From Candidatus Nitrosopumilus sediminis (GTDB lineage: Archaea; Thermoproteota; Nitrososphaeria; Nitrososphaerales; Nitrosopumilaceae): a stretch of DNA of 64,000 bases. Below, piece after piece: positions 6,642 to 9,697 of this stretch. Both the position numbers and the translations under genes were made by a program. The DNA is taken from the NCBI RefSeq assembly GCF_000299395.1, contig NC_018656.1, positions 1,550,001 through 1,614,000 on the forward strand, in the 5' to 3' direction. Numbering within the stretch: position 1 is the stretch's first letter; every line of letters starts with the position of its first letter. The notes below the pieces were generated by a model. The model saw nothing but the letters and a program-made list of their open reading frames with translations, searched no databases and was not told the origin of the DNA.

Positions 6642-7664
6642 ATGGATTTTTTAAAAATTAATGGAGCACATGGTGAGGGGGGTGGACAAATTATTCGTTC
6701 AGCAATAGCACTCTCATGTATTACAAAACAAGCAATTCATTTAGAAAATATTAGAAAGAATAGAAAAATTCCTGGATTAAAACCGCAACATCTTACAGCA
6801 ATTACTTTACTTCAAAAAATTGCAAATGCTAAAGTTGTTGGAGCAAATCTTGGATCAACAGAATTAAAATTCATTCCAGGCAATCTTGAAGATTTGGATT
6901 TAGAGGCAGATGTTGGTACCGCTGGAAGCATCCCATTGATTTTACAAGTTCTAATTCCAGTAGTTGCAGTTTCACGAAAAAAACTTAATTTAAAAATTAA
7001 AGGAGGTACAGATGTTCTTTGGAGTCCAACTATTGATTATACTCAACATGTTTTAAGAGAAGCATATTCAAGAATGGGAATAAAATTTTCATTTGAATTA
7101 TGTAAACGTGGTTATTATCCAAAAGGGGGTGGAAAAATCAATTTACAAATAAATCCATCTAACGTAAATTCAATAATATTTTCAAAAAGAAAAACAAATA
7201 ACATAAAATTAATTTGTTCATTTTCAAAATTACTTAGAGAAGAAATTGAGAGTAAAGTAAATGAAATTGTAAAGAAGTTAGACGTTGCAAATTTTATTGT
7301 AGATGTAGAAATTAAATCAGAAGAGGCATTAGATTCAGGTGCATCATTGTTAATCTATAGTGTTGATGATAATTCAATAATAGGATTGGACGGATTGTAT
7401 AATAAAAAAACACATAATTTTGATTTGGATCTTGATAAATTTATTGAAGGTTATTCAATAGATGATAATTTGGCAGATATGATAGTTGTTCCAGCAAGTT
7501 TAGGTAATGGAAAAACGATTTTTCAAGTAAAAGAAATTACAAAACATTTAGAAACAAATTTGTTTGTTACATCAAAAATTACCGGCTGTAAATACGGTAT
7601 TGGAAAAACAAGTTATGGATATGAAGTGATTATTGAGGGAATTTCAAACTCCAGCATCAAGTAA
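6642..7664 (+). CDS. rtcA: RNA 3'-terminal phosphate cyclase
   Basis: This 340-residue RtcA converts RNA 3'-phosphates to 2',3'-cyclic phosphates using ATP through a covalent His-AMP intermediate. Conserved GEGGGQIIRSA is at 11-21, RGYYPKGGG at 156-164, and the likely adenylated histidine is His302 in ITKHLETN. Length is normal. It converges on a CopD-like gene with a 21-base 3' overlap. The window also holds thpR (2',3'-cyclic phosphodiesterase activity) and cca, so RNA end processing is well represented, though these genes are not adjacent. Confidence 0.94.
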   Translation: MDFLKINGAHGEGGGQIIRSAIALSCITKQAIHLENIRKNRKIPGLKPQHLTAITLLQKIANAKVVGANLGSTELKFIPGNLEDLDLEADVGTAGSIPLILQVLIPVVAVSRKKLNLKIKGGTDVLWSPTIDYTQHVLREAYSRMGIKFSFELCKRGYYPKGGGKINLQINPSNVNSIIFSKRKTNNIKLICSFSKLLREEIESKVNEIVKKLDVANFIVDVEIKSEEALDSGASLLIYSVDDNSIIGLDGLYNKKTHNFDLDLDKFIEGYSIDDNLADMIVVPASLGNGKTIFQVKEITKHLETNLFVTSKITGCKYGIGKTSYGYEVIIEGISNSSIK

Positions 7665-8868: not shown

Positions 8869-9579
8869 ATGACAGAAAATTTTACTGATGAAGAAAAAAG
8901 AGGATTCTATAAGGCAATTTACTCAAGAAGAGATGTAAGATCTCACTTTACCTCAAAATCAATAGAAGATGATATTTTATCAAAAATTCTTAATGCTGCA
9001 CATCATGCACCATCAGTGGGATTTTCTCAACCATGGAATTTTATTTTGATAAAAGATCCTGATACAAAAAAGAAAATAAAAGAATCATTTGAGGAAGAAA
9101 AAAATCGTTCATCTCAATTAGTCGAAGAACCAAAGAGATCAAAATATCTTTCATTCAAGTTAGAAGGAATTTTGGAATCTCCAGTCAATCTTTGTGTAAC
9201 ATATGATCCTACAAAATTTGGACCGTTTGTAATTGGTAGATCAAGCATTCCAGAAGCTGGTCTTTATAGTGTATGTTGTGCAATTCAGAATTTGTGGTTA
9301 TCAGCTAGAACAGAAGGAGTAGGTCTTGGATGGGTAAGCATTTTATCAAATGAAACATTAAAAGAAACTTTAGATTTACCAGAGCACGTTATACCTGTAG
9401 CGTATTTGTGTTTAGGATATGTTGATGAATTTGCAGAGAAACCAGATCTTGAGACTAAAGGTTGGTTACCAAGACTAGAATTAAAAGATGTAGTATTTTT
9501 TGAAAAATGGAATGATAAAGAAAATAAAGATTGGAAAAAAATTCAAAACATGATCAAAGATAACCTTGATTACGCTTAA
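8869..9579 (+). CDS. bluB: 5,6-dimethylbenzimidazole synthase
   Basis: This 236-residue BluB cannibalises reduced FMN to form 5,6-dimethylbenzimidazole, the lower ligand of cobalamin. The nitroreductase fold is clear: YSRRDVRSHF near 18-27 for flavin phosphate, APSVGFSQPWNFI near 46-58, then the BluB-type stretches GLYSVCCAIQNLWL and EGVGLGWVSIL, and the ending LCLGYVDEF, GWLPR, FEKWN. The BluB-specific match is much better than to general nitroreductases. Thaumarchaea are known cobalamin producers, and cobJ lies 10 kb away. It stands as a single gene between two tRNA genes. Confidence 0.93.
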   Translation: MTENFTDEEKRGFYKAIYSRRDVRSHFTSKSIEDDILSKILNAAHHAPSVGFSQPWNFILIKDPDTKKKIKESFEEEKNRSSQLVEEPKRSKYLSFKLEGILESPVNLCVTYDPTKFGPFVIGRSSIPEAGLYSVCCAIQNLWLSARTEGVGLGWVSILSNETLKETLDLPEHVIPVAYLCLGYVDEFAEKPDLETKGWLPRLELKDVVFFEKWNDKENKDWKKIQNMIKDNLDYA

Positions 9580-9592
9580 ATAATTAAGAATG

Positions 9593-9604: not shown

Positions 9605-9697
9605 GGGCTTGTAGCGCAGAGTCAATTTGACGCGCAACATGGATAGCGCAGTAGCCTCCTAAGTTACAGGTCGAGGGATCGAAGCCCTCCAAGCCCG
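9605..9697 (+). tRNA. tRNA-Arg (CCT) with 18-base intron in the D arm
   Basis: The acceptor GGGCTTG pairs with CAAGCCC, discriminator G9697. The anticodon arm is GTAGC / CTCCTAA / GTTAC (anticodon CCT at 9658-9660) and the T stem is GAGGG/CCCTC with loop ATCGAAG, where A replaces T54. The first GCGCA at 9614 is repeated 18 bases later at 9632. Removing 18 bases restores a normal 75-base tRNA with D arm GCGC / AACATGGATA / GCGC. The exact junction is ambiguous within the GCGCA repeat. The intron holds a GTCA-ATT-TGAC hairpin suited to archaeal splicing endonuclease. Confidence 0.88.

Follow-up and report, generated by a model that had tools for sequence, protein, structure and literature searches.

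The tRNA-Arg(CCT) locus

The window, i.e., the whole stretch of 64,000 nucleotides analysed here, is part of a complete genome of 1,690,905 bases, and the nearest named relatives at the tRNA-Arg(CCT) locus are Nitrosopumilus. A gene of the nitroreductase family (8869..9579, + strand; Pfam PF00881) lies directly upstream of the tRNA gene and is syntenic with it in relatives. The stop codon of this gene is overlapped by the TATA-box-like TTAAATAATT (9576..9585, +), which is the probable promoter of the tRNA gene. In 120 of the 132 orthologous loci described below, the word TTAAA starts 28-32 bases 5' of G1; as a mildly informative control, a TATA-like word is present 24-36 bases upstream of 25 of the 43 tRNA genes of the genome. 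Past position 2208 of L125 (JAJCXK010000034.1), a locus in a metagenome-assembled genome (MAG), the nitroreductase gene and the TATA-like TTAAATAATT are kept and the tRNA-Arg(CCT) gene is absent, reflecting either gene loss or an assembly problem. A gene for an RNA 3'-terminal phosphate cyclase (6642-7664, +; PF01137) is located ~2 kb upstream of the tRNA gene.

Positions 9605-9697 (+) read as a tRNA-Arg(CCT) gene of 93 bases, from G1 at 9605 to G73 at 9697, with 18 extra bases after G15. When these bases are taken out, a 75-base cloverleaf results, as the original prediction had it; its anticodon CCT occupies 9658-9660, and A54 is located at 9678. That prediction considered A54 odd, but three further tRNAs of the genome, i.e., tRNA-Arg(TCT), tRNA-Arg(TCG) and a tRNA-Met, share the T-loop ATCGAAG, and A54 is thus ordinary here. 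Exon 1 (9605..9619, +) comprises the 5' acceptor strand GGGCTTG, T8 and A9, the 5' D-stem strand GCGC (9614-9617), and A14 and G15; its 3' end was set by the junction seen in intronless orthologues. Exon 2 (9638..9697, +) starts with the remainder of the D loop, CATGGATA, which is followed by the 3' D-stem strand GCGC (9646-9649), the anticodon arm with CCT, the variable loop, the T arm with the loop ATCGAAG (9678-9684), the 3' acceptor strand CAAGCCC and G73.

The gene was missed by ARAGORN in the window. A whole-genome search with the Rfam tRNA model recovered it whole as one of 43 matches (50.2 bits), and a scan of the window with this model gave the fragment 9627-9692 alone (31.2 bits). 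No second tRNA-Arg(CCT) gene is present among the 43 Rfam matches with their anticodons assigned. One candidate, C1:1262093, was called 'CCT' once by ARAGORN; it was rejected, being tRNA-Ser(GCT) in another ARAGORN reading. The 43 matches form an incomplete tRNA set, because the gene for tRNA-Leu(TAA) (L199; G000:C1 ~1380984-1381002, minus strand) escaped the Rfam scan and was recovered via its T arm. This tRNA-Leu(TAA) gene seemingly contains two introns, i.e., a D-arm hairpin AAGCAC/GTGCTT and ~14 bases 3' of the anticodon.

Architecture of the insert

The insert in tRNA-Arg(CCT) is predicted to be an archaeal intron with a bulge-helix-bulge (BHB) motif of the relaxed HBh' type, located at tRNA position 15/16 in the D loop. 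From 5' to 3', the order of elements is GCGC-AGA-GTCA-ATT-TGAC-GCGC-AAC-ATGG. The exon GCGC (9614-9617) can pair with the intron GCGC (9632-9635), and GTCA can pair with TGAC, leaving two bulges of 3 nt, i.e., AGA (bulge 1; 9618..9620, +) and AAC (bulge 2; 9636..9638, +). The BHB rule puts the cut of every bulge between its second and third bases. Applied to AGA and AAC, this rule predicts cuts at 9619/9620 and 9637/9638, both matching the intronless orthologues, and therefore an 18-nt intron AGTCAATTTGACGCGCAA at 9620..9637 (+) and a joined D loop AGCATGGATA. The intron so defined consists of the last base of bulge 1, the hairpin GTCA-ATT-TGAC (9621-9631), GCGC (9632-9635) and the first two bases of bulge 2. 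The product spliced in this way is a 75-nt cloverleaf, and its D loop equals that of tRNA-Arg(TCT) (L022) and of the intronless orthologues.

The original prediction proposed an 18-base archaeal intron away from the canonical position 37/38. This part stands, but the boundary, which had been drawn at a GCGCA direct repeat (9614-9618 and 9632-9636), does not. Taking out one copy of GCGCA leaves the D loop AACATGGATA with A15 (AACATGG), whereas every intronless orthologue read, as well as tRNA-Arg(TCT), has G15 (AGYATGG). The insert had also been placed inside the D stem, but it follows position 15 and thus lies in the D loop. The BHB cut and the intronless orthologues together resolve the 5-base ambiguity noted for its position. 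What had been read as a five-base direct repeat corresponds to the central helix, which is palindromic.

No outer exon-exon helix h is present: TGTA and ATGG, which are located beside the motif, are unpaired on inspection, and the helix is absent from the computed fold. Since this helix does not form, the motif is assigned to the HBh' subtype and not to the strict hBHBh' form. The insert sits at 15/16 and not at the canonical 37/38. When the precursor was folded computationally, the BHB form was the minimum with -32.1 kcal/mol, vs. -30.4 kcal/mol when the D stem was enforced; this gap of 1.7 kcal/mol is small and only allows the BHB model. The minimum-energy fold of the precursor disturbs the anticodon arm, too.

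Conservation and covariation of the intron

Orthologous loci were counted as the genes fitting the script pattern, 132 at the time of the count with same-genome duplicates under two ids included. The intron is present in 118 of them and absent from 14. The intron-bearing loci represent 45 distinct forms, all of which fit two bulges of 3 nt and have at least three of the four pairs of the central helix, as well as at least 3 bp in the intron helix next to bulge 1. Pairs 1-3 of the intron helix are each standard in 45/45 forms, with two to four pair types, which is beyond all 2000 shuffles, and compensatory changes turn the hairpin GTCA/TGAC into ATCA/TGAT, GCC/GGC or CTTTG/CAAAG. The central helix is weakly tested, as its outermost pair is often non-standard and the others hardly vary. 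Pair 1 is standard in 23 of the 45 forms and is G-A or G-G in 22, and because of the latter the motif is considered a relaxed rather than a strict BHB. Pairs 2-4 are standard in all forms but almost invariant, with a single compensatory change (GCGT/ACGC in L063). An alternative register with a second bulge of 5 nt gives 3/4 central pairs in 43/45 forms but breaks the intron hairpin, as judged by inspection. The loop drifts in length and sequence, whereas both bulges remain at 3 nt. Where the window has its second GCGC, many relatives read GCGA; given this variation and that at pair 1, the GCGCA direct repeat is not the conserved feature.

The gene and its insert are found again in relatives at the syntenic position, and the insert is, therefore, not a matter of chance. 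When 80 named loci were fetched via the upstream nitroreductase gene, the tRNA gene was found in 77, with the intron in 76 and without it in one (L117). The other three are L116, where the contig ends, L152, where the gene is cut with the intron visible, and L125; thus, the gene is missing from the fetched stretch in two of the 80 loci only (L116 and L125). A DNA search gave matches in 44 of 61 genomes, the own genome included, some of them to other tRNAs only. A pattern search gave hits in 145 of 300 genomes from the order and in 127 of 200 from a class sample; both are undercounts, because a hit required GCGCAG together with an exactly matching exon core. Six genomes (G026, G030, G260, G077, G182 and G155) were counted as intron-bearing after reading of the upstream sequence showed that the intron's own GCGCAG copy had matched, and eight f22 matches of the class-sample search were left out of this upstream reading.

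These data bear on the possibility of a pseudogene or a silent gene, with AGG being read by tRNA-Arg(UCU). A UCU anticodon can read AGG through wobble, and L125 provides one MAG locus where the upstream gene is not followed by the tRNA gene. However, the exons are intact and almost invariant in Nitrosopumilus, and the TATA-like box is kept in the large majority of the loci (120/132), which makes this explanation very improbable.

Intronless orthologues and distribution of the intron

Intronless orthologues occupy the same syntenic position as the intron-bearing ones. The 14 intronless loci belong to 13 genomes (L079 and L117 are from one genome). Ten of them have AGCATGGA and four have AGTATGGA; the A15 form is present in none. 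A further locus, L084 (G049), has no intron either and reads AGCATGGA, but it falls outside the script pattern and, hence, outside the 14.

The absence of A15 is difficult to reconcile with removal at the direct repeat, i.e., with deletion of one GCGCA copy. An 18-base deletion between the GCGCA copies likewise yields a 75-base cloverleaf, but it would leave a base at position 15 that is found neither in these 13 genomes nor in tRNA-Arg(TCT), and the repeat itself is lost in the many relatives with GCGA. We consider this explanation extremely unlikely and retain the BHB cut.

Within Nitrosopumilaceae, exact absences of the intron are seen in G025, in four g29 genomes and in two g27 genomes, and 16-22-nt relatives of the intron in others. 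G025 is of the same genus; over ~3 kb, its flanks agree for 95.7% with L120 and for 94.8% with L136, and its tRNA gene lacks exactly the predicted 18 nt. The boundary in G025 coincides with the splice junction to the base, with no microhomology, whereas slippage between the two GCGCA copies would have produced A15.

Members of family f8, presumably Nitrososphaeraceae-like, have unlike introns at 15/16, e.g., CCTCGTTA/TAACGAGG in L085. Longer or unlike BHB introns at this site of tRNA-Arg(CCT) are found in L085, L086, L105-L107 and L111, and they may descend from a common ancestor or have arisen there more than once. In the examples read from families f2, f10, f14, f15 and f17, tRNA-Arg(CCT) has no 15/16 intron. 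In one of these, L096 (G052, f17), an insert follows CCTCCTAAG immediately, just 3' of the anticodon and close to the canonical site. Two different intron-bearing tRNA-Arg(CCT)-like genes, L077 and L078, are present in one bin (G021, 96% complete), and L078 has CCTCCGGAG where others have CCTCCTAAG; this could be a mixed bin.

A nitroreductase tree (48 of 126 sequences obtained; quick method) contains long branches, those of L212, L215 and L222 among them; L207 and L208, from intron-bearing g29 genomes, are outside the tree, having no nitroreductase gene in the fetched stretch. On its 48 rows, the presence and absence of the intron need four changes, one on the outgroup side and three within Nitrosopumilaceae, and the starred branches force at least three changes in all. 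Because of the long branches, the three changes within Nitrosopumilaceae are a minimum on this tree, which does not by itself tell gain from loss. If the intron is ancestral in Nitrosopumilaceae, most relatives retained it, and three exact losses account for the few that lack it. The exact absences in G025, g29 and g27 might then be losses templated by the spliced tRNA, via cDNA or RNA-mediated gene conversion, a scenario that we regard as possible but rather unlikely. If true, archaeal intron loss templated by RNA would have a marker in this small intron.

Splicing machinery and proposed mechanism

The genome contains two genes of the EndA family (PF01974), L031 and L032. The product of L031 is similar along its length to crenarchaeal-type EndA chains (2cv8, E 2.5e-42), and it aligns with their HAP(F/Y)LV segment, here HAPFLV, which we take to be the place of the catalytic histidine. 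This segment is absent from L032. Thus, by their sequences, L031 looks like the catalytic and L032 like the structural-type subunit of the splicing endonuclease. One gene for an RtcB ligase (PF01139) is present in the genome. According to the consulted part of a review, the enzymes of Thaumarchaeota are α2β2, and non-canonical introns abound in archaea of this kind (PMC4090602).

With the sequence, the conserved motif, the covariation of the intron hairpin, the matching intronless orthologues and the enzyme genes as observed facts, the locus is very probably the genome's only tRNA-Arg(CCU) gene, with an 18-nt archaeal pre-tRNA intron at 15/16, which is BHB-spliced by endonuclease and RtcB. In the precursor, D-stem bases 10-13 (GCGC) would pair with the intron GCGC and not with bases 22-25, and this pairing, together with the intron hairpin GTCA/TGAC, would create the HBh'-type BHB. 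The two-subunit endonuclease would then cleave both bulges behind the second of their three bases (AG^A and AA^C), and RtcB would ligate the exons. The GCGC set free would build the normal D stem, with the D loop AGCATGGATA and G15 opposite C48. We infer the cutting, the ligation and this order of refolding.

That the 18 bases instead persist after maturation, extending the D arm of the tRNA, would fit with the unspliced RNA still folding well when the D stem is enforced (-30.4 kcal/mol), but we give this hardly any credence in view of the intronless orthologues at the same syntenic place, an insert that keeps the BHB and not a D-arm helix while its loop drifts and its bulges stay at 3, and the presence of both classes of splicing enzymes in the genome.

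Comparison with known tRNA introns

The original prediction considered an intron inside the D stem with a 5-base ambiguity unusual, but archaeal tRNA introns at odd positions, the D arm included, are an established and well-known class (PMC4090602, PMC8450103, PMC3218864, PMC3293823, PMC12397907). HBh' is among the archaeal splice-site forms in the consulted part of the review (PMC4090602), and the part of PMC8450103 consulted gives 107 non-canonical introns in Thaumarchaeota genomes and a Thaumarchaeota-specific BHB model. A literature search, with supplementary tables and GtRNAdb outside its scope, found nothing naming position 15/16 of tRNA-Arg(CCU), and this intron may well be annotated already. 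The kind of intron is well known, and the observation is right while the phenomenon is known. Its value lies in correcting an exon-intron boundary that a repeat-based reading gets wrong, in a gene that ARAGORN misses in the window. In addition, the syntenic series of loci with and without a short intron at one site in ammonia-oxidising archaea is useful for understanding how tRNA introns are lost.

The intron resembles non-canonical archaeal introns with BHB, HBh' or hBH motifs in its 3-nt bulges, its central helix (4 bp in theirs, 3-4 bp here), its intron hairpin and the α2β2-type endonuclease. Its position, 15/16, differs from those named in the consulted part of PMC4090602 (20/21, 22/23, 25/26 and others given as 'etc.'). 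Furthermore, it is short (18 nt) compared with non-canonical archaeal introns, and the palindrome GCGC of its central helix doubles as a D-stem strand. Caldiarchaeum subterraneum is likewise an archaeon with D-arm introns, tRNA-Arg(CCU) being unmentioned in the consulted part of that report (PMC3293823). Within the same genome, ARAGORN with introns allowed found an intron after the anticodon in tRNA-Tyr(GTA) and tRNA-Met(CAT). Canonical 37/38 introns are presumably processed by the same endonuclease and ligase, but they are located in the anticodon loop, whereas the intron described here is located in the D loop.
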